Shown here piece by piece: positions 12,988 through 61,636 of a DNA stretch of 64,000 nucleotides. The stretch lies in assembly GCA_002280515.1 (NCBI GenBank), contig NCEA01000009.1, positions 42,419 to 106,418 of the forward strand. The letters run 5' to 3'. A model generated the notes under the pieces. It had not been told where the DNA came from, did no database searches, and saw nothing but the letters and a program-made list of their open reading frames with translations. The stretch comes from Rhodobacterales bacterium 32-67-9. GTDB taxonomy: Bacteria > Pseudomonadota > Alphaproteobacteria > Rhodobacterales > Rhodobacteraceae. Numbering within the stretch: the first letter of the stretch is position 1; every line of letters starts with the position of its first letter. A program made the position numbers and the translations under genes.

Positions 12988-14670
12988 ATGCTCGACCGCA
13001 AGAACACCCGCGATATCTTCCCGCCGACCGGGACGACCCTGAACGCCAAGAGCTGGCAGACCGAGGCGCCGCTCCGGATGCTGATGAACAACCTGCATCC
13101 CGACGTCGCCGAAAACCCGCACGAGCTTGTCGTCTACGGCGGCATCGGTCGGGCCGCGCGCTCCTGGGGCGATTTCGACCGCATCGTCGCGGCGCTGAAG
13201 GATCTCGAGGCCGACGAGACGCTGATCGTCCAGTCCGGACGCCCCGTCGCGGTGGTCCGCACCCATGCGGATGCCCCCCGCGTCCTCATCGCCAATTCCA
13301 ACCTCGTGCCGCATTGGGCCACCTGGGACCATTTCAACGACCTCGATAAGAAGGGGTTGATGATGTACGGCCAGATGACCGCCGGATCGTGGATCTACAT
13401 TGGAACTCAAGGCATTGTGCAGGGAACCTACGAAACCTTCGCCGAGGCCGGGCGCCAGCATTACGGCGGCGACCTGACGGGCAAATGGATCCTCACCGGC
13501 GGCCTCGGCGGCATGGGCGGCGCCCAGCCGCTCGCCGCCGTCATGGCGGGCGCCTGCTGTCTCGCCGTCGAATGCGACGAGACCCGGATCGATTTCCGTA
13601 TCCGGACCAGGTATTTGGACGCGAAAGCTCGGACGCTGGACGAAGCGCTCGCCCTCATCGCCGGCTGGACCGCGAAGGGCGAAGCGAAGTCCGTGGGCCT
13701 CCTTGGCAACGCCGCCGAGGTCTTCCCCGAACTGGTCGCCCGCATGAAGGCCGGCGGCCCCCGCCCTGACATCGTCACCGACCAGACCTCGGCCCACGAC
13801 CCGCTGCACGGCTATCTGCCGCTCGGCTGGTCGGTCGCCGATTGGCGCGCGAAACAGGAAAGCGATCCGAAGGCGGTCGAGGCCGCCGCCCGCGCCAGCA
13901 TGCGCACCCATGTCGCCGCGATGGTCGATTTCTGGAACGCCGGGGTGCCGACGCTCGACTACGGCAACAACATCCGCCAGGTCGCGAAGGACGAGGGACT
14001 GGAAAACGCCTTCGCCTTCCCGGGCTTCGTGCCTGCCTACATCCGGCCCCTCTTCTGCAAGGGCATCGGCCCCTTCCGCTGGTGCGCGCTCTCGGGCGAC
14101 CCGGAGGATATCTACAAGACCGACGCGGCGATGAAGAAGCTCTTCCCCGAGAACGCCCACCTGCACCGCTGGCTCGACATGGCGCGCGACCGCATCGCCT
14201 TCCAGGGCCTGCCCGCCCGCATCTGCTGGATCGGCCTAGGCGACCGGCACCGCGCCGGCCTGATGTTCAACGAGATGGTGGCGAGCGGAGAACTCAAGGC
14301 CCCCGTCGTCATCGGCCGCGACCACCTCGATTCCGGCTCGGTCGCAAGCCCCAACCGCGAGACCGAGGCGATGAAGGACGGCTCCGACGCCGTCTCCGAC
14401 TGGCCGCTCCTCAACGCGCTCGTCAACACCGCCTCTGGCGCGACCTGGGTCAGCCTCCATCACGGCGGCGGCGTCGGCATGGGCTTCAGCCAGCATTCCG
14501 GCGTTGTCATCTGCGCCGACGGCACGCCCGAGGCCGCCCGCCGCCTCGAACGCGTGCTCTGGAATGACCCCGCCTCCGGCGTCTGGCGCCACGCCGATGC
14601 GGGCTACGACACCGCCATCCAATGCGCCCGGGAAAACGGTCTCCGCCTGCCGACGATCCTCGGCACCTGA
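12988..14670 (+). CDS. hutU: Urocanate hydratase HutU
   Basis: HutU is an NAD-dependent urocanase converting urocanate to imidazolonepropionate. The 560-residue length is normal for the family. Visible hallmarks are [14 protein letters not shown] near the N-terminus, [17 protein letters not shown], the dinucleotide-binding [14 protein letters not shown], and the active-site Cys region [16 protein letters not shown]. It ends with [17 protein letters not shown] and a short C-terminal tail. AAGGAG lies just before the ATG. It is the last gene of the hutIHGU operon; an array of palindromes starts a few bases after its stop. Confidence 0.96.
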
Positions 14671-14673
14671 TCC

Positions 14674-14700
14674 TCTTCTGTTCGAAAATACCTCGGGAGG
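14674..14700. repeat. Recurring intergenic motif, copy B (after hutU)
   Basis: TCTTCTGTTC-GAAAATACCTCGGGAGG starts four bases after the hutU stop. It matches the reverse complement of 18212-18239 almost base for base, with one base fewer in the middle. The repeat is plain in the sequence; its role is unknown. Confidence 0.6.
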
Positions 14701-14760
14701 GTCCGGGAGGGCAGTGCCCTCCCGGTTGGGGGAGGGTCCGGGAGGGCAGCGCCCTCCCGG
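14696..14760. repeat. Two tandem 30-bp copies of a palindromic element
   Basis: The unit GGAGGGTCC-GGGAGGGCAG-YGCCCTCCCGG occurs at 14696-14725 and 14731-14760 with a single T/C difference and a period of 35. Each unit contains a strong inverted repeat: 11-base arms at 14703-14713 and 14715-14725, and 10-base arms at 14738-14747 and 14751-14760. They lie in the 168-base hutU-waaA space and could fold in RNA as stacked hairpins. Termination or mRNA stabilisation for hutU is possible, but no T-tract follows. Confidence 0.7.
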
Positions 14761-14792
14761 CGGGTCGGATCGCGGAACGCGATCCGACCCGC
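14760..14792. repeat. Long stem-loop with perfect 15-bp arms
   Basis: The arm GCGGGTCGGATCGCG at 14760-14774 pairs exactly with 14778-14792 around a three-base GAA loop. It follows directly on the two tandem palindromes. A 15-bp GC-rich stem can act as a terminator-like or extragenic palindromic element; no T-run follows it. Confidence 0.7.
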
Positions 14793-18166: not shown

Positions 18167-18170
18167 CGGC

Positions 18171-18189
18171 AGGGGGCTTTCCGCCCCCT
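18171..18189 (+). terminator. GC-rich hairpin after the DUF1178 gene
   Basis: AGGGGGC (18171-18177) pairs with GCCCCCT (18183-18189) around a TTTCC loop, five bases after the stop. A second small hairpin (TGCGCG/CGCGCA) follows at 18191-18207. There is no T-run, so intrinsic termination is only likely. Confidence 0.45.
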
Positions 18190-18211
18190 CTGCGCGCCTC
18201 GCGCGCATTCA

Positions 18212-18239
18212 CCCCCGAAGGTATTTTCAGAACAGAAGA
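18212..18239. repeat. Recurring intergenic motif, copy C (opposite orientation)
   Basis: Read on the minus strand this is TCTTCTGTTCTG-AAAATACCTTCGGGGG. It is the clearest partner of copy B at 14674-14700 but is inverted relative to it. It ends ten bases before the SDR start at 18250, so it also occupies that gene's leader. Confidence 0.6.
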
Positions 18240-18249
18240 AAGAGGGACC

Positions 18250-33090: not shown

Positions 33091-33450
33091 ATGTTCCTCC
33101 GTCCCATCCTGCCCGCGCTCGCGCTTGCTGCCCTCGCGGCCTGCGCCGATCCCGCCAGCCGCTGCGGCGGTCCCGAGACACGAGAGTTGAAGACCATCGA
33201 CAAGCTCATCGCCGAGACCCGCGCCAATCTCGACCGCGGCTATACGCGGGTGCGCGAGGACAGCGGGGCGTCGGTCAACTTCTGCCTCGGCAGCCACAAC
33301 TCGAATGTCGGGCTCAGCTTCTGCACCGATCCGGGCAGCCGGACCCGGACCGCCCCCCTCGACACCGCCGCCGAGACTCGCAAGCTCGAATCGCTGCTGG
33401 CCCGGCGCGACGCGCTGACCGCCCGCATCGCCGCCTGTGCCCGGCCCTGA
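33091..33450 (+). CDS. Small lipoprotein, first of three tandem paralogues
   Basis: This is a 119-residue predicted lipoprotein: signal MFLRPILPALALAALAAC with a lipobox LAAC at residues 15-18. The mature part has a KTIDKLIAETRANLDRGYTR helix shared with the two following genes, and further Cys residues in NFCLGSHN and LSFCTD, possibly forming disulfides in the periplasm. The C-terminal helix TRKLESLLARRDALTARIAA is also shared. It diverges from the sister genes in its middle part. The function is unknown. Confidence 0.7.
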   Translation: MFLRPILPALALAALAACADPASRCGGPETRELKTIDKLIAETRANLDRGYTRVREDSGASVNFCLGSHNSNVGLSFCTDPGSRTRTAPLDTAAETRKLESLLARRDALTARIAACARP

Positions 33451-33462
33451 CCGCGATACCCC

Positions 33463-33846
33463 GTGATGCACCTTCGCCCCGCCCTTTTCGTCCTTCTCCT
33501 TCTCGCGGCCTGCGGCACTCCGCAGGAACAGTGCATCCGTACCGCGACGCGCGAGATTGCGACCCTCGACCGGCTGATCGCCGAGACCGAGACCAACCTC
33601 GCGCGCGGTTATGCCCTTGAGGAACGCGAGGTCGTGCGCCGCGAATGGTCGCGCTGCGACGACTGGGTGCCGGGTACGCCGCGCCGGATGTGCTTCGAGC
33701 CGGTCTGGCACACGGTGAAGCGCCCGGTCGCCATCGACCCGGCGGCCGAAGAGCGCAAGCTCGGCGGGCTGGAGGCGCGGCGCAAGGCGCTCGGCCTTCA
33801 GGCCGCCTCCGCCATAGCGGCCTGCCGGGCGCAGTACCCGGAATGA
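33463..33846 (+). CDS. Small lipoprotein, second of three tandem paralogues
   Basis: This is a 127-residue predicted lipoprotein with signal MMHLRPALFVLLLLAACG (lipobox LAAC). It has the same plan as its neighbours: LDRLIAETETNLARGYALEE near the N-terminus, two Cys in the middle (WSRCDDW and RMCFEP), then VKRPVAIDPAAEERKLGGLE and a final Cys in AACRAQYP. It is closest to the third copy, sharing the RPVAIDPA block. It starts 12 bases after the first copy, and its stop overlaps the start of the third (ATGA), so the set is an operon. The function is unknown. Confidence 0.7.
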   Translation: MMHLRPALFVLLLLAACGTPQEQCIRTATREIATLDRLIAETETNLARGYALEEREVVRREWSRCDDWVPGTPRRMCFEPVWHTVKRPVAIDPAAEERKLGGLEARRKALGLQAASAIAACRAQYPE

Positions 33847-36451: not shown

Positions 36452-36578
36452 CGGGATTCGGGCGCAGGGGTTCGGGACGTCAATATAATCCATGGGCGGG
36501 ATGAGAAAAAGGTTGCGATTGGACCGGGATTGATCCGGATCGCCAAAACCGCCAGATTGGGCGCCCGTGAGGACGCCC

Positions 36579-37468: not shown

Positions 37469-39352
37469 GTGAGACAGGTGTTTACTTGTCCGGGGCAGTG
37501 CGTCCAACGCACCCGCATGTTCGTCGCATTCGTGCTGGCGTTTCTTATCGTGCCGATGCTTGCGCTCGCAGCACCCTATGCGGATTTCGTCATCGACGCC
37601 CGCACCGGCGAGGTGCTGCATCAGGACAATGCCGACACGCGGCTTCACCCCGCCTCGCTGACCAAGATGATGACGCTCTACATCGCCTTCGAAGCGATCG
37701 AGTACGGCGAGATCTCGCTCGACAGCAAGGTCACGATCTCCAAGCACGCAGCCTCGCAACCGCCCTCGCGACTGGGCCTCAAGCCTGGGCAGACGATCGC
37801 CCTGCGCTACCTCATCCGCGCCGCTGCGATCAAGTCGGCGAATGACGCCGCGACGGCGATCGGCGAGGCGATCGAAGGGTCCGAGCCGGCCTTCGCCCGG
37901 CGCATGAACCGCACCGCGAAACTGCTCGGCATGAAGCGCTCCACCTTCGTCAACGCGAACGGCCTCACCGCCGCGGGCCACCTTTCCACCGCGCGCGACA
38001 TGACGATGCTCGGCCGCCACCTCTTCTACGACTACCCGCAGTACTACAATCTCTTCTCGCGCACCTCGGCCGATGCCGGCGTGGCGCAGGTGGCCCATAC
38101 CAACAGCCGCTTTCTTGCCGCCTACAAGGGCGCCGACGGGATCAAGACCGGCTACACCGCGGCGGCCGGCTTCAACCTGACGGCCTCGGCCCAGCGCGGC
38201 AACAAGCGCATCATCGCCACCGTGCTCGGCGGCAAGTCGACAGCCAGCCGCAATGCCCGCGTGGCGGAACTCATGGATCTCGGCTTCGGCAAGGCGCCGA
38301 ACCGGGCGACGGTCCAGAAACCGGCGCGGCCCGATTACCTCGCCTCGGCCGAACCTGCCGACGACGGCATGGCCGAAGCCGTGGCGAAGGCCGTGACGAC
38401 CGCGTCCGGCGCGGTGGCCGCCGGCAAGACCATCCGCCTCAACGTCGCCATCGTCAGAAGTCCGCGCCCGAAGGCGCGGCCGCAGCCGGGCATCGAGGCG
38501 CCGGCGGAAGAACTCCTCCTCGCGATGCAGGACGACATCAACGCCGCCCTCGCCGAGGCACAGGAGCTTTCGCTGACCGACGACGTCCCGTCCGCCGCAG
38601 TTGCAGAAGCGGTCGCGGAGGCGGCGGAGGCCGTACCCGCTGCAGGCACCGAACTGGCCGCCGCCGAACCGGAGGCCCCCGTCGCCCCGGTCTTCGCCGC
38701 AACGACCGAGGCGCAGCCCGAAACCACGCTCGCGCTTGCCGCAGCGCCGGATGCGTCGACCGACACCGCTACCACCGCCGTGGAGGGCACCGAACCGCTC
38801 GCCCTCGCCTCGGCCATCGCCCCGACGCAATCCCCGATGCCCCCCGCCGCCCCCCGGCCGGCCGAGGCAGCAGCGGAAATCGTGATCGCCGCCGCGGCCC
38901 CTGCCCCGACAGCCGACACTGTTGTCATCGCCGAGGCGCCGGCGCCGGTCGAAAGCGTCGCGCCCGAATCCGTCTCCACCGATACGCCCGTGATCATCGC
39001 CAAGCCCGATGCGCCGACGCCGAAGTCGCGCCCGGAAGAGATCGTCCTGGCCTCCTTCACCGCCGAGGAGCCCGTCGCCGAGGAACTGGAGGTCGTGACC
39101 CGCGTCTCGACCTCGGGCGGACGGCAATGGGCGATCAATGTCGGCCACTTCGGCTCGCGCTACAACGCCGAACGGGAGCTTCTACGCACCGCTCTCGTGG
39201 AGATCAGCACGCTCGACGAGGCTCTGCGGAAGGTCGTGGCGCGCAAGGGCGGCTTCGACGCGAACTTCGTCGGCATGACCGAAGAGATGGCGAACCTCGC
39301 CTGCCGCCGCTTGCAGGCCCGGCAGACCGAATGCACGGTGATCGGGCCCTGA
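37469..39352 (+). CDS. D-alanyl-D-alanine carboxypeptidase (peptidase S11) with C-terminal SPOR domain
   Basis: This is a 627-residue penicillin-binding protein of the DacA/DacF type, trimming the terminal D-Ala of peptidoglycan in the periplasm. After a signal peptide (FVAFVLAFLIVPMLALAAPY) come S63-L-T-K66, S123-A-N125 and K226-T-G228, the three active-site motifs. A long Ala/Pro/Glu-rich linker (about 300-545) leads to a C-terminal SPOR domain (WAINVGHFGSRYNAERELL to the end) that in other proteins binds denuded septal glycan. GTG 37469 gives a basic signal n-region; ATG 37517 is an alternative. The 179-base upstream space shows no clear promoter. Confidence 0.88.
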   Translation: MRQVFTCPGQCVQRTRMFVAFVLAFLIVPMLALAAPYADFVIDARTGEVLHQDNADTRLHPASLTKMMTLYIAFEAIEYGEISLDSKVTISKHAASQPPSRLGLKPGQTIALRYLIRAAAIKSANDAATAIGEAIEGSEPAFARRMNRTAKLLGMKRSTFVNANGLTAAGHLSTARDMTMLGRHLFYDYPQYYNLFSRTSADAGVAQVAHTNSRFLAAYKGADGIKTGYTAAAGFNLTASAQRGNKRIIATVLGGKSTASRNARVAELMDLGFGKAPNRATVQKPARPDYLASAEPADDGMAEAVAKAVTTASGAVAAGKTIRLNVAIVRSPRPKARPQPGIEAPAEELLLAMQDDINAALAEAQELSLTDDVPSAAVAEAVAEAAEAVPAAGTELAAAEPEAPVAPVFAATTEAQPETTLALAAAPDASTDTATTAVEGTEPLALASAIAPTQSPMPPAAPRPAEAAAEIVIAAAAPAPTADTVVIAEAPAPVESVAPESVSTDTPVIIAKPDAPTPKSRPEEIVLASFTAEEPVAEELEVVTRVSTSGGRQWAINVGHFGSRYNAERELLRTALVEISTLDEALRKVVARKGGFDANFVGMTEEMANLACRRLQARQTECTVIGP

Positions 39353-39358
39353 TCGCGG

Positions 39359-39517
39359 TCAGGGTTTCGGGCGATCGTCCCAGTCGTCGCTGAGAATGCG
39401 GTTCGCGTCGCCGTCGGGATCGTCGTATTGCCGGTGCTTCAGCGACCAGAGGAAGGCGGCAAGGCCGATCCCACCGAGAAGCAGCGAGACGGGGATCAGG
39501 TAGACCAGCATCTCCAT
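39359..39517 (-). CDS. ccoS: cbb3-type oxidase assembly protein CcoS
   Basis: This is a 52-residue protein: MEMLVYLIPVSLLLGGIGLA forms a single membrane helix, followed by AFLWSLKHRQYDDPDGDA and a short acidic tail. This is the typical CcoS (FixS/RdxS) plan, needed for cofactor insertion in cbb3 oxidase. A second ATG two codons in (39511) is an alternative start. It follows ccoI by 10 bases and closes the ccoGHIS order on the minus strand. Confidence 0.92.
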   Translation of the reverse strand: MEMLVYLIPVSLLLGGIGLAAFLWSLKHRQYDDPDGDANRILSDDWDDRPKP

Positions 39518-39527
39518 CGCGACACCG

Positions 39528-41711
39528 TCACTTCAGCCGGAGCGCGTTGAGCGAGACGGTGATCGAGGATGCCGACATCGCCAGCGCGGCGATCAGCGGC
39601 GTGGCGAGGCCGACAAGCGCCACCGGCACCGCGATGACGTTGTAGGCGAGCGACAGCGCGAAATTCTGCTTGATCCGCCGCCGCGCGACCGTCGCGATCC
39701 GGAGCGCGTCGGACAGCGGCGCAAGGTCCTGGCCCAGAAGCACGATATCCGACGCCGTCCGCGCCGCGTCGAGGGCTGTTGCCGGCGATATCGAGACATG
39801 TGCACCGGCAAGGGCCGCCGTGTCGTTCAGCCCGTCGCCGACCATCAGCACCCGGTGCCCCGCTTCGGTCAGCGCCGCGATCCGCCCGGCCTTTTCCTCG
39901 GGCCGCATTCCCGATTGCCAGTCCGGAATGCCGAGCGTCCTTGCCAAGGTCGCAACCGGCGCCTCGGCGTCGCCCGAGAGAAGGATCACCCGCTTGCCTG
40001 ACGCGATCAGCGCTTGCACCGCCTCCTCCGCGCCGGGACGCGGGCTGTCGGCAAAGGCGAACTCGACCGGTGCTGCGTCGCCCTTGGCGAACCAGCTTGC
40101 CGTCCGTTCGCCCGGCACGGCACCGAGCCATTCGGCGCGACCGAGCCGCACCGGCTTGCCGCGCCAGCGCCCCTCGACGCCCCAACCCGGCACTTCGCGA
40201 AGGCCGGTCACGGCCGCGGGACGAATGCCGGCGGCATCAAGCGCCCCCGCAAGTGCCCGCGACAGCGGATGTGCCGAGGCCCCGGCCAGCGCCGCGACCA
40301 CGGCAAGGTCGTCGCGCGACCGAGCCGACAGATCCTGTGGCTCTGGTGCGCCCATGGTCAGCGTCCCGGTCTTGTCGAAGACGACCGTATCGACTTCGGC
40401 CAGCCGTTCCAGCGCGGTGCCGTCCTTGATCAGAAACCCCTTGCGGAACAGCTTGCCCGAGGCCGAGGTCACCACCGCCGGCACCGCGAGCGCCAGCGCG
40501 CAGGGGCAGGTAATGATCAGCACGGCCGCCGCGATATTGACCGAAAGCCGCAGATCGCCGGTCAGGTACATCCAGACCGCGAATGCTGTGAGCGACAGGA
40601 GATGGACCGACGGCGAATAGGCCCGCGCCATCCGGTCGGCAAGCGAGGTGTATTTCGTTCGCGCATTCTCTGCCACCGCGACAAGGTCGGCCATGCGATG
40701 AAGCGAGGAATCGCGCCCTGCCGCCGACACGCGCACCGTCAGCGGCCCGGTCAGGTTGACCTCGCCCGCGCTGACCGTGCTGCCCTCCCCCGCCCAGACC
40801 GGCAGCGTTTCCCCCGTCAGGAGCGAGCGGTCGATCTCCGACGTGCCCTCGGTCACGGTGCCGTCGACCGGCATCCGCGCGCCCGGCCGGACCCGGACGA
40901 GGTCGCCGACGGCGAGTTCGGCGATCGGCACGATCCGTTCTTCTCCCGCCAGCAGCTTCGTCGCGCGCGGGACTTCGAGCGCCGCGAGTTCCTCGGCAGC
41001 CGACCGGGCGGCGGCGCGGCTGCGGTAGTCGAGATAGCGCCCCGCCAGCAGGAAGAAGCACAGGGAGACGGCGGCGTCGAAATAGGCGTGGTGGCCACCC
41101 TCGAACGTCTCGTAGAGCGAAATTGCCGAGGCGAGGATCAGCGCCAGCGATATCGGCACATCCATGCCGAGCCGCCGCGCCTTGAGCGAGGTCCAGGCCG
41201 AGGCAAAGAACGGCTGGCCGGCGAAGGCCAATGTCGGCAGTGCGATGGCGGCGGAAATCCAGTGGAAAAGGTCGCGTGTCGCGGCCTCGGCCCCCGACCA
41301 GACCGCGACCGACAAGAGCATGATGTTCATCATCGCGAAGCCGGCGACGCCGAGCCGCATGAGAAGGTCGCGGCCGCGCTTGTCGGTCTCGGTCACCGAG
41401 AGGAGGCCGGGATCAAGCTCGTGCGCCGGATAGCCGATGGTCTTGAGGCGGGCGATCACGTCGTCTGCGGTGACGTCCGGGCCAGCCGCGACCGAAACGC
41501 GTTTCAGGGTGAGGTTGACGCGCGCCGACCTCACCCCCGGCATCGCTGCCAGCGTGCGTTCGACATCCGAGATGCAGACGGCGCAATGGGCGGTCGGCAG
41601 CGACAGGACCAGCCCCGCGTCCTTCTCGGCCCGTCGCGCGGCGATCGCCTCGGCCGCAGGCGCCGCGACGCAGGCGGGACAGGCCGAGATCGAGGGCGCG
41701 GCGGTGGACAT
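39528..41711 (-). CDS. ccoI: Copper-transporting P1B ATPase CcoI
   Basis: CcoI (FixI/RdxI) exports copper for assembly of the CuB centre of cbb3 oxidase. The 727-residue protein begins with a Cys-containing ACPAC stretch and an HMA-like domain with HCAVCISDVERTLAAMPG (CxxC-type copper ligand). It continues through helices to TGE (LLTGETLP), the CPC motif in ITCPCALALAVP, the phosphorylation site FDKTGTLTMG, HP in SAHPLSRALAG and VGDGLNDTAAL. Context between ccoH and ccoS and the CPC motif make CcoI much more likely than a general CopA. Confidence 0.94.
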   Translation of the reverse strand: MSTAAPSISACPACVAAPAAEAIAARRAEKDAGLVLSLPTAHCAVCISDVERTLAAMPGVRSARVNLTLKRVSVAAGPDVTADDVIARLKTIGYPAHELDPGLLSVTETDKRGRDLLMRLGVAGFAMMNIMLLSVAVWSGAEAATRDLFHWISAAIALPTLAFAGQPFFASAWTSLKARRLGMDVPISLALILASAISLYETFEGGHHAYFDAAVSLCFFLLAGRYLDYRSRAAARSAAEELAALEVPRATKLLAGEERIVPIAELAVGDLVRVRPGARMPVDGTVTEGTSEIDRSLLTGETLPVWAGEGSTVSAGEVNLTGPLTVRVSAAGRDSSLHRMADLVAVAENARTKYTSLADRMARAYSPSVHLLSLTAFAVWMYLTGDLRLSVNIAAAVLIITCPCALALAVPAVVTSASGKLFRKGFLIKDGTALERLAEVDTVVFDKTGTLTMGAPEPQDLSARSRDDLAVVAALAGASAHPLSRALAGALDAAGIRPAAVTGLREVPGWGVEGRWRGKPVRLGRAEWLGAVPGERTASWFAKGDAAPVEFAFADSPRPGAEEAVQALIASGKRVILLSGDAEAPVATLARTLGIPDWQSGMRPEEKAGRIAALTEAGHRVLMVGDGLNDTAALAGAHVSISPATALDAARTASDIVLLGQDLAPLSDALRIATVARRRIKQNFALSLAYNVIAVPVALVGLATPLIAALAMSASSITVSLNALRLK

Positions 41712-43675: not shown

Positions 43676-43874
43676 AATTCCTGCCCGGAATGCGGCGAAT
43701 CCGCCGGCCTCTGATCGTATCGCGCTTTTCCGGGGAAGGTCTGGCCGCCGTTTCCCGGCGCATCGCGCGGAAGATCTTGGCTGGCAAGTGGTGTATGATC
43801 GGGTAGAAAGTGGAGAAAGGCACCGGCGCCCCCAGGAAACGCGCGAACAGGACGGGGCGCCGATGCTCTCTACC

Positions 43875-43903: not shown

Positions 43904-44014
43904 TTACTCGCCGCCACCGCGGCTGTGGACCCAGGCCGCGACGGCGCGGATGTCGGCCTCGCTGAGGCGTCCGGTCCAGGACGGCATCACGCCGAAGCGG
44001 GCATTGGTGACCGT
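43904..44014 (-). pseudogene. ccoP: Displaced 3' end of ccoP (lost frame)
   Basis: Read in the frame ending TAA at 43904, this stretch encodes [20 protein letters not shown] and continues to [13 protein letters not shown]. This is the normal C-terminus of CcoP, including the Met that ligates the second heme. It is out of frame with the upstream part (43987-44709) and has no start of its own. About 20-odd residues expected before it, the APNL-DAIWLYGG stretch of CcoP proteins, are missing. The junction lies near 44014-44020. Confidence 0.8.
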
Positions 44015-44709
44015 CCCCGGTCGCCGGTGCCGTCTTCCATGTGGCAGGCCGCACAGTTGTCGGCGAAGACCGTCGCGCCCTCGGTAGCGAGGCCCGCGTC
44101 ATGCTCCTGCCCCGAAATTTGCAGGACATATTGCACGACCTGGTCGATCTGCGCCGGCTCCAGCAACTCGTCGGCACCGAATTTCGGCATCTCGGAATAG
44201 CGGGCGTCAGCGTCGGTCGTATTGCGGATACCGTGAGTGATGGTGGTGTGGATATCCTCGATCGTGCCGCCCCAGAGCCAGTCGTTGTCGAGCAGGTTCG
44301 GATAGCCGACCGCACCGGCGGCACCCGAGCCGTGGCACTGCGCGCACCAGGTGCGGAAGACCGCGCCGCCGGCGTTCTGGGTGTAGTTGGCGAGGTCCGG
44401 ATCCGTGGCGATCGCGGTCAGGTCGGTGGCGACAAGCTTTGCCTCGACCGGCGCGTTGGCATCCTCGTAGCGCTGGATCTCCGCCGCGACGTCGGAGCGG
44501 GTATTCTGGTTCAGCAGACCCTGCGTCGCACCCGACACCAGCGGCCATGCCGGGTAGGCGATGGTGTAGAGGACGCCCCAGATGATCGTCAGGTAGAAGG
44601 TCCAGAGCCACCAGCGCGGCAGCGGGTTGTTGAATTCCTGAATGCCGTCCCATTCGTGGCCGGTGGTTTCAGGATCGACCTTGGAGGTCTGTACGGGTCT
44701 CTTGCTCAT
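43987..44709 (-). CDS. ccoP: CcoP, cbb3 oxidase diheme cytochrome c subunit, truncated by frameshift
   Basis: CcoP passes electrons from the bc1 complex or cytochrome cy to the CcoO heme and on to CcoN. The reading frame gives 240 residues, while intact relatives have about 290. The N-terminal anchor ([20 protein letters not shown]), heme motif 1 (C122-A-Q-C-H126), [10 protein letters not shown] and SEMPKFG are normal. Heme motif 2 (C219-A-A-C-H223) and EDGTGDRG are present, but then the frame runs into RSPMPASA and stops. The true C-terminus with the second-heme Met lies in another frame (43904-44014). The second heme should therefore lack its axial ligand. This is either a real lesion or a sequence/assembly error. 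The start overlaps the ccoQ stop. Confidence 0.85.
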
Positions 44710-44924
44710 TTGAACGCCTCCTGCGCCTTGGCGCCGATGCTCCCCATCACGCCATTGTCTCGCGCGGGTTTGTCTTCATGCCGGAACGGGATGTTCGCGA
44801 TATCCTCGTGGACGCGCCGCGATCCGGGCCGGAAGGCCCAGAGAACGACGCCGAGGAAGACCAGCGTCAGTGCCAGAAGCACCCAGCTGTCGGCGAATTC
44901 CCTCAGGAGCGAATAGATATCCAT
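44706..44924 (-). CDS. ccoQ: CcoQ, small cbb3 oxidase subunit
   Basis: This is a 72-residue protein with a single helix ([19 protein letters not shown]) followed by [20 protein letters not shown], the CcoQ/FixQ pattern. CcoQ stabilises the complex. It overlaps ccoP by four bases (ATGA) and follows ccoO by 10 bases. Confidence 0.92.
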
Positions 44925-44934
44925 CGCCCCCTCC

Positions 44935-45660
44935 TCAGCGGTTCGGGTCGGGCTGGAAGGTCGTGAAATCGACCATCGTGCCCAGAACCTGGAGATAGGC
45001 GATCAGCGCGTCCATCTCGGTGATGCCGGGCTGCCCGTCGAAATTCGACACGGTGGCGCCCGGATAGCGCTCGATCAGCCCGTCGGTGTCGGCGTCCGGA
45101 TCGGCCTGGGCGGCGAAGTCGGCCTTGGCCAGTTCGATCATCTCCGAAGTGTAGGGAACGCCGACCAGCGCATCCGTGCCGAGCCGCTCGTCGATCCAGG
45201 TGGGTTCGATCAGCCGGTTGGCGAGGAAACCGTATTTCGGCATCACCGATTCCGGCACCACCGATTGCGGGTCGGTCAGGTGGTCGACATGCCATTCGTC
45301 GGAATAGCGGCCGCCCACCCGGGCCAGATCCGGCCCGGTGCGCTTCGATCCCCACTGGAACGGATGGTCGTACATCGATTCCGCCGCGAGGCTGTAGTGG
45401 CCGTAGCGCTCCACCTCGTCGCGCATCGGCCGGATCATCTGGCTGTGGCAGACGTAGCAGCCTTCGCGGATGTAGATGTCGCGTCCGGTCAGTTCCAGGG
45501 GCGTGTAGGGACGCACGCCTTCCACTTTCTCGATCGTGTTCTCGAGGTAGAAGAGCGGGGCGATTTCCACGATGCCGCCGATCGTGACCACCGCGAAGGC
45601 GCCGATCAGAAGGGCCGTCGCGTTGGTCTCGAGGAACTTGTGCTTTTCAAGAATACCCAT
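44935..45660 (-). CDS. ccoO: CcoO, monoheme cytochrome c subunit of cbb3 oxidase
   Basis: This is a 241-residue membrane-anchored cytochrome c. The N-terminal helix ([20 protein letters not shown]) is followed by the heme motif in [13 protein letters not shown] and the family segments [36 protein letters not shown] and MPKYGFLAN with the axial Met. Start ATG 45660 gives [11 protein letters not shown]; upstream in-frame codons to 45726 belong to the leader. It lies 13 bases after ccoN. Confidence 0.96.
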
Positions 45661-45673
45661 GATCCGGGCCCCC

Positions 45674-47275
45674 TTATTCGGCCGGGACAGCGTTGGAAGC
45701 ACCAGCCACGGCCGGCTGCTTCGCAACGGTTGCCCAGAGGTTGTAGACCATGATCAGCGCGCCGGTGAGGTAGAGAACCCCGCCGAGACCCCGCACCACG
45801 TACATCGGGAACTTCGCGGCGACGGTGTCGGCGAAGGCGTTCACGAGGAAGCCCTGGCTGTCCACTTCGCGCCACATCAGGCCTTCCATGATCCCGGTGA
45901 CCCACATCGAGGCGGCGTAGAGCACGATCCCGATGGTGGCGAGCCAGAAGTGCCAGCTGACCAGCGAGAGCGAATAGAGCCGCTCGCGGTTCCAGAGCCG
46001 AGGGGTCAGGAAGTAGAGCGCACCGAAGGTGATCATGCCGTTCCAGCCAAGCGCGCCGGAGTGGACGTGGCCGATGGTCCAGTCGGTGTAGTGGCTGAGC
46101 GAGTTCACCGCCTTGATCGACATCATCGGGCCTTCGAAGGTCGACATGCCGTAGAAGCCGACGGAAACCACCATCATCCGGATGATCGGATCGGTCCTGA
46201 GCTTGTCCCAGGCGCCCGAGAGCGTCATCAGGCCGTTGATCATGCCACCCCAGGACGGCATCCAGAGGATGATCGAGAACACCATGCCCAGCGTCGCGGC
46301 CCAGTCGGGCAGTGCGGTATAGTGCAGGTGGTGCGGACCGGCCCAGATGTAGAGGAAGATCAGCGCCCAGAAGTGGATGATGCTGAGCTTGTAGGAGTAG
46401 ACCGGCCGGCCGGCCTGCTTCGGCACGAAGTAGTACATCATGCCGAGAAAGCCGGCGGTCAGGAAGAAGCCGACCGCGTTATGGCCGTACCACCACTGCG
46501 TCATCGCGTCCTGCACGCCGGCGAAGACCTGCACCGACTTGGAGCCGAACATCGAGACCGGAATGGACAGGTTGTTGACCACATGCAGCATCGCGATGGT
46601 GACGATGAACGACAGGTAGAACCAGTTCGCGACGTAGATATGCGGCTCTTTCCGCTTGATGATCGTGCCGAGGAAGACCGCGAGGTAGGCGACCCAGACG
46701 ATCGTCAGCCACCAGTCGACGTACCATTCAGGCTCGGCGTATTCCTTGGACTGGGTGGCGCCGAGGATATAGCCGGTCGCCGCCAGCACGATGACGAGCT
46801 GGTAGCCCCAGAACACGAACCAGGCGAGGTTGCCGCCCCAGAGGCGGGCGGCCGAGGTGCGCTGGACGACATAGAAGGACGACATGATGAGGGCGTTGCC
46901 GCCGAAGGCGAAGATCACCGCCGAGGTGTGCAGCGGCCGGAGCTTGCCGAAGTTCAGGTAACCCTGCGTCAACTCGGAGAAATTCAGCGCCGGAAACGCG
47001 AGCTGGAAGGCGATCGTCACGCCGACGAGGAAGCCGACGACTCCCCAGAGCGAGGTCGCGATCACGCCCGCGCGCACCACTCCGTCATTGTATTCGTTGA
47101 CCGGCGCCGACCGGCTGTCGCCCGTGTGGCGCAGCACCCACAGAAAGGTCAGCGCGGCGGCAAGCATCACCGTCAACGCGTTCACCATATAGGCCAGATC
47201 ATGCGCGTAATTGGCGGCAATCGCGGCTAGAACCGCGATGGCGCCAAGCACGGCGAGCTTAATGTAATCCCACAT
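45674..47275 (-). CDS. ccoN: CcoN, catalytic subunit I of cbb3 oxidase
   Basis: CcoN carries low-spin heme b and the heme b3-CuB oxygen-reducing centre. The 533-residue protein has twelve or so membrane helices and the family His residues, including [50 protein letters not shown] and the copper and heme ligand stretch [31 protein letters not shown] holds later His ligands. It is the first gene of ccoNOQP. Two FNR boxes lie 97 and 130 bases upstream in the space shared with usp. Confidence 0.97.
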
Positions 47276-61111: not shown

Positions 61112-61636
61112 TCAGCCGCCGAGCGACTGGAGATAGGCGATGATGTTGGCGCGGTCCTCGGGCTTCTTCAGCCCGGCAAAGGACATCTTGGTGCCCGCAA
61201 CGACGCCCTTGGGGTCTTCGAGGAACGTGTTCAGCGCCTCCGGCGTCCAGTCGCCGCCGTGGCTCACCATCCCGTCCGAATAGCCGAAGCCCGCGACCGA
61301 GGCCACGGCGCGGCCAACCACGCCGTCGAGATGCGGACCGGTGCCGTTGGTACCGTCAATCTTGTGGCAGGCCTTGCACTTGCCGAAGACCTTCTCGCCT
61401 GCGGCGGCATCGGCCGAGGCCAGCAGCGTCGCGAAATCGGGGCCGGCATCCGCCGCCGGTGCGGCGGCTTCCGCCGCGCCGGTGTCGATCGTGTAGGCCT
61501 GCGCGACCTCCTCTCCGGCATGGGCCACCGGACCGGTGTGATAGAGCGACTCGGCCGCCCACTTGCCCAGAAGGAAGATCAGGAAAGCCCCGCAGAGCGC
61601 GCCGCCGGCCTTCGTTATCGTCATCGTGTCGAACAT
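61112..61636 (-). CDS. cycY: Membrane-anchored cytochrome c (cytochrome cy / c552 type)
   Basis: This is a 174-residue protein with an uncleaved N-terminal helix ([20 protein letters not shown]), an Ala/Pro-rich linker (about 48-66) and a class I cytochrome c domain. The heme motif is C87-K-A-C-H91 and the axial ligand Met151 in [20 protein letters not shown]. This layout is that of cytochrome cy in Rhodobacter and c552 in Paracoccus, which carry electrons from bc1 to cbb3 and other oxidases. The symbol is by analogy (cycM in Paracoccus). It is divergent from pheA over 121 bases. Confidence 0.9.

Follow-up and report, generated by a model that had tools for sequence, protein, structure and literature searches.

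In the stretch of DNA analysed here (64,000 nucleotides; hereafter, the window), ccoP of the main ccoNOQP operon lacks 67 bases that its relatives carry. Judged from the sequence, the best reading is that the cells sequenced carry a deletion of 67 bases, which is recent and probably inactivated the gene. Supporting this, there is one gap, its flanks are collinear, and it is absent from all relatives checked. The main rival is a local assembly error (a misjoin, gap closing or a minor strain variant), with the organism's own ccoP intact. This is a serious contender, though we consider it somewhat less probable. An earlier note on this DNA had named the same choices, a recently damaged oxidase or a sequence error. 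Both readings remain, and we rank the deletion first.

Reading frames of ccoP and its operon

The genes of the operon, and the parts of ccoP, are as follows.

43987..44709, minus strand: ccoP as now read; 240 aa, with anchor, first CxxCH and Met, second CAACH, then RSPMPASA and TGA
43904..44014, minus strand: displaced CcoP C-terminus; 36 aa in another frame, with the FGVMPSW second-heme Met and the original TAA
44014..44017, minus strand: putative deletion junction; 67 bases absent compared to 21 of 21 same-genus relatives, without exact microhomology
44706..44924, minus strand: ccoQ; 72 aa, open; named by position and sequence, without an NCBIfam hit
44935..45726, minus strand: ccoO; open; TIGR00781, 375.1 bits
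45674..47275, minus strand: ccoN; open; TIGR00780, 846.2 bits
42172..43599, minus strand: ccoG; open; TIGR02745, 562 bits
41715..42170, minus strand: ccoH/fixH-like; open; named by position, length and sequence, without an NCBIfam hit
39528..41711, minus strand: ccoI-type copper P-type ATPase; open; TIGR01511, 475.8 bits; ccoI by position
39359..39517, minus strand: ccoS-like; 52 aa, open; named from sequence and position

The earlier note held that the frame from 44709 reads normally to the second CAACH and stops after RSPMPASA, and that the normal CcoP C-terminus, with a TAA at 43904, sits in another frame. Both statements are correct. The first frame occupies 44709 to 43987 on the minus strand, and the tail frame starts at 44014. 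Intact CcoP of relatives has approximately 290 aa, compared to 240 aa here. The window protein is cut just past the second CxxCH and is some 58 residues short, the aberrant end and TGA falling 17 residues beyond CAACH. Note that its score against TIGR00782 (351.6 bits) is well above the curated cut-off (179.95). Hence, automatic annotation would still name the gene ccoP and, if the gap is an error, that label would hide the break. Profile positions 4-228 of 285 are covered and 229-285 are absent. The FixP_N anchor (PF14715) is kept (88.6 bits, cut-off 24.9), as is the first cytochrome c domain (Cytochrom_C, residues 113-198), where CAQCH and SEMPKF can be read directly. The second cytochrome c domain is incomplete, with CAACH in frame and the Met of FGVMPSW in another frame. 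The claim that the axial ligand of the second heme was removed stands, with one refinement. The Met is lost from the frame, but its codon is not deleted and persists downstream, out of frame.

All other cco genes are open, in agreement with the note's view that they are intact. CcoN, CcoO and CcoG pass specific NCBIfam cut-offs. The ATPase at 39528..41711 passes general copper/heavy-metal ATPase models, and Q, H and S were assigned by position and sequence.

The size of the gap was estimated previously as 60-70 bases, one more than a multiple of three, near 44014-44020, and alignment with CcoP of relatives was proposed as the way to refine this. We aligned ccoP from 21 same-genus genomes, as DNA, to the window gene. 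A single gap of 67 bases (22 codons plus 1 base) lies at 44014-44017, and the APNL-DAIWLYGG stretch reported as missing falls inside it. The two other gaps in the window gene are 3 bases each. Net differences in ccoP length are 67 for three relatives (L004, L005 and L012), 64 for 15, 70 for one and 58 for one; the value for L019 is not meaningful, since its ccoP runs off the contig before the Met. The missing segment is present in 21/21 genes, with the whole tail visible in 20. Independently of this alignment, the blastn match between the window and one relative, G013, is broken between 44015 and 44017. For a second relative, G021, one match begins at 44020 and its neighbour ends at 43709. Hence, the short ccoP tail dropped out of the blastn matches in that case. 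Since 67 bases are missing, the frame is shifted and the second heme site of CcoP is lost.

The complete second domain is seen in all of the wider loci read. Genome contigs were scanned with the 240-aa protein, which matched at least 592 stretches. At least 539 were confirmed and the best 80 were kept, some being from the same genomes as the 21-genome set. In each of these best 80 loci, a VMP motif and an in-frame stop come after the second CxxCH. When a strict YGG rule was applied, 21 of the 80 were flagged; inspected by eye, they depart in that string only. Named best matches, among those listed, include Defluviimonas and Albidovulum, which suggests that the source is an Albidovulum/Defluviimonas-like member of the Rhodobacteraceae. 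An unbroken ccoP in every one of the 21 genus mates, and in the best 80 wider loci that partly overlap them, counts in favour of an assembly error.

Age and origin of the gap

Divergence from the nearest relative (L004) was compared on either side of the gap. Before the gap, 46 synonymous and 16 amino-acid changes separate the two genes over 231 codons. After it, over 37 codons counting the stop, there are 2 synonymous differences and the protein is unchanged, with 36 of 36 residues identical. When six other relatives are compared, their tails differ from that of the window by 9-13 synonymous and 0-2 amino-acid changes. Because the tail matches the nearest relative in protein, the lesion is either very recent or an error. 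On this comparison, protein constraint on the tail would have lasted until very recently, or would still act, in which case the gap is an error. Note that 2 changes compared to the nearest relative are too few for this test to separate a recent deletion from an error. Indeed, an identical tail with 2 synonymous changes is what an intact gene, misassembled here, should give. The word "recent" in the earlier note is supported by the 0/36 residue changes and by occurrence of the gap in 0/21 genus mates. The window ccoP also has features expected of a recent pseudogene: a displaced remainder in another frame and an intact gene in close relatives.

The junction gives few clues to mechanism. No repeat pair bracketing it was found in the window, but this search is weak because a slip would leave one copy. 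Exact microhomology is absent at the junction, and the cut with fewest mismatches varies between relatives. The lack of such homology, which would show how a deletion arose, is a further point for the assembly error. Slippage between GACCG words was considered. These flank the missing segment in several relatives, but a simple slip between them would take out 68 bases and produce a junction unlike the one seen. A strong hairpin was also rejected; DNA folding of 43950-44080, as the sequence now stands, is no better than that of shuffles (z -0.13). If the bases were truly lost, the default mechanism would be a deletion during replication or repair that involved little or no homology.

Frame integrity across the window

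The assembly is a draft of 60 contigs (93.64% complete, 2.02% contaminated), which adds to the case for an error. It yielded no second intact copy of the window ccoP or of the tail. We compared genes from G013 and G021 with the window as protein, counting hits of at least 60% identity. For 68 of 84 relative genes, at least 90% was covered in one open stretch of the window. Merged, these make 47 stretches; a few of them are over-extended frames, overlaps or shadows, so that 47 is no tally of curated genes. The frame check bears on the approximately 54.4 of the 64 kb where the two relatives gave DNA matches 500 bases or longer.

Of the 16 rows that were flagged, two concern ccoP, with one from each relative. 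The remaining 14 were considered harmless, two after alignment, four from the stop position and eight from coordinates or overlap alone. Briefly, an apparent second frame break near 36570 (two rows) comes from the shadow of a minus-strand gene being joined, over an intergenic gap, to a plus-strand gene, according to the G013 alignment. Four rows have extra stops (55390 and 55759; 7366; 18958; 23529) upstream of the window gene's listed start. This fits over-extended starts, although a nonsense change near the true N-terminus would look identical. The flag at 14.7 kb has no stop and breaks upstream of the gene start. Those at 53.8-55.3 kb, 20.0-20.4 kb and 33.4 kb are, respectively, the shadow frame of a minus-strand gene, an over-extended frame, and two overlapping frames. 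At 37.5-38.7 kb and 48.4 kb, the window gene is whole in the G021 comparison. Two rows at the window ends were judged harmless from coordinates or overlap.

After this review of flags, ccoP is the sole window gene judged broken compared to both relatives. Hence, the sequence does not appear to be generally indel-ridden, and no generally raised rate of frame breaks is seen within the compared part of the window. This speaks against an assembly error, given 68 of 84 genes open and only the two ccoP rows, from 16 flagged, judged real. So does the size of the loss, as the usual homopolymer sequencing error does not remove 67 bases.

Some other features of the window were recorded. Two adjacent small lipoprotein-like genes (33091-33846) have a similar start sequence by eye and are perhaps a tandem pair. 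A 627-aa carboxypeptidase-like protein (37469-39352; named by eye) has a long middle section rich in Ala, Pro and Glu. It has a whole match in G021; in the nearest relative, G013, only the first 433 residues match, in one frame. Short stretches at approximately 14654-14787 and 18168-18245 match many scattered sites in three related genomes, a pattern that an intergenic repeat family would produce.

Consequences for the oxidase

The window CcoP matches PDB chains 9g83_v (query residues 11-234, E 2e-116) and 6xkw_p (residues 1-229, E 8.3e-99), which we take to be CcoP of the Paracoccus denitrificans and Rhodobacter capsulatus cbb3 oxidases. The subunit is the same, and the first heme site and second CxxCH line up in the alignments. 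The difference is that those proteins have a whole second domain, whereas the window protein stops just past the second CxxCH. Returning to the deletion, a single out-of-frame event would have hit ccoP while leaving its first heme site and its anchor in place. The second cytochrome c domain would be unable to fold, and the window cbb3 oxidase would be lost or much reduced.

Parallels from other organisms make loss of function likely by analogy. In Rba. sphaeroides, deletion of ccoP derepresses pigment under oxic conditions, like disruption of the operon (PMC4944227). In R. capsulatus, assembly is described as proceeding via CcoQP and CcoNO sub-complexes, and insertion of CcoN does not require CcoO or CcoP (PMC8267372). 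In Neisseria, all ccoP insertions recovered lay 3' of the second heme domain, from which it follows that the di-heme form is needed for microaerobic growth (PMC2924362). Natural lesions are also described. A SNP in ccoP of Neisseria meningitidis shortens the protein, removing a C-terminal heme domain (PMC2924362). There, an extra third domain is lost, the di-heme core is kept and the change is a species marker; here, the second domain of the core is lost. In Bordetella pertussis, premature stops occur in ccoN of 14/14 strains examined, and in ccoP of strain 18323, with other oxidases in the genome (PMC11257404). The lesions and organism differ from ours, and the ccoN stop is common to strains, whereas the window lesion is in a single genome. 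Our literature search, of incomplete coverage, found no report of such a ccoP lesion in this group. Since there are published cases of naturally broken cco genes (PMC11257404; PMC2924362), the window lesion is ordinary in kind.

A different outcome is that the 240-aa protein works as a mono-heme CcoP, with a membrane-anchored cytochrome c552/cy feeding the first heme directly. The gene concerned, which bears only on this reading, is within the window.

61112..61636, minus strand: membrane-anchored cytochrome c552/cy-type electron donor; intact; matches 9fks_o (1.1e-70), cytochrome c-552 (3m97) and cytochrome cy (6xkw_Y)

Besides this intact donor gene, and the intact anchor and first heme domain, the proposed R. 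capsulatus route is suggestive. Electrons would pass from cytochrome c2 to heme cp2, then cp1 and CcoO, while cytochrome cy possibly donates straight to cp1 (PMC7876108). We have assumed from its number that cp1 is the N-terminal heme. Conversely, the second domain is kept in relatives (21 in the genus, one running off its contig before the Met, and the best 80 wider loci), the Neisseria insertions argue for a need of the di-heme form (PMC2924362), and the stub, whose CxxCH has hardly any domain around it, would probably misfold. We consider a working mono-heme protein very improbable. A rewiring with no loss at all, whereby mono-heme CcoP lacks the entrance for soluble cytochrome c2 (heme cp2) and the oxidase is fed only by c552/cy via cp1, seems more improbable still.

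If the deletion has inactivated ccoP, other oxidases are available. On contig C6 (locus L033, 8975-12796) there is a second set of ccoNOQP genes. Here, ccoN2 passes its cut-off narrowly (591.1 bits, 583.15 required), ccoO2 and ccoP2 are over NCBIfam cut-offs, ccoP2 is intact at 290 aa, and a ccoQ-like 53-aa frame lies between O2 and P2. Seven of 22 genus genomes, the source genome included, have a second, distant ccoP copy; G002, with a partial hit of 45 residues, and G012, with an 89% fragment, are outside this count. Contig C49 encodes an aa3-type subunit I (680.9 bits, cut-off 670.75). A COX1-family protein of 465 aa on C3, outside the window, matched no specific model and presumably resembles NorB. 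C8 has a weak COX1 hit, below cut-off, and cydA was not found in the assembly. With the second ccoNOQP set and aa3 subunit I present, loss of the window cbb3 would be tolerable, and the cell would cope through these two systems. Hence, the earlier phrase "damaged oxidase" holds for the broken ccoP and needs the qualifier that another ccoNOQP set and an aa3 subunit I are encoded elsewhere in the assembly.

Two observations concern the neighbourhood of the second set. An Rrf2-family regulator adjoins it, with the NO sensor NsrR as best match (112 bits, below the cut-off of 182), and a nitric-oxide link for the second cbb3 oxidase is possible. Nearby, at L033 6270-6800, is a small cupredoxin (plastocyanin/pseudoazurin-like, below cut-offs) that could be an electron donor.

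If the deletion is real, the window ccoP would be a further case of high-affinity oxidase loss where other terminal oxidases exist. It would also be a natural test of the need for the second CcoP heme in a cell that has a membrane-bound cytochrome c donor.
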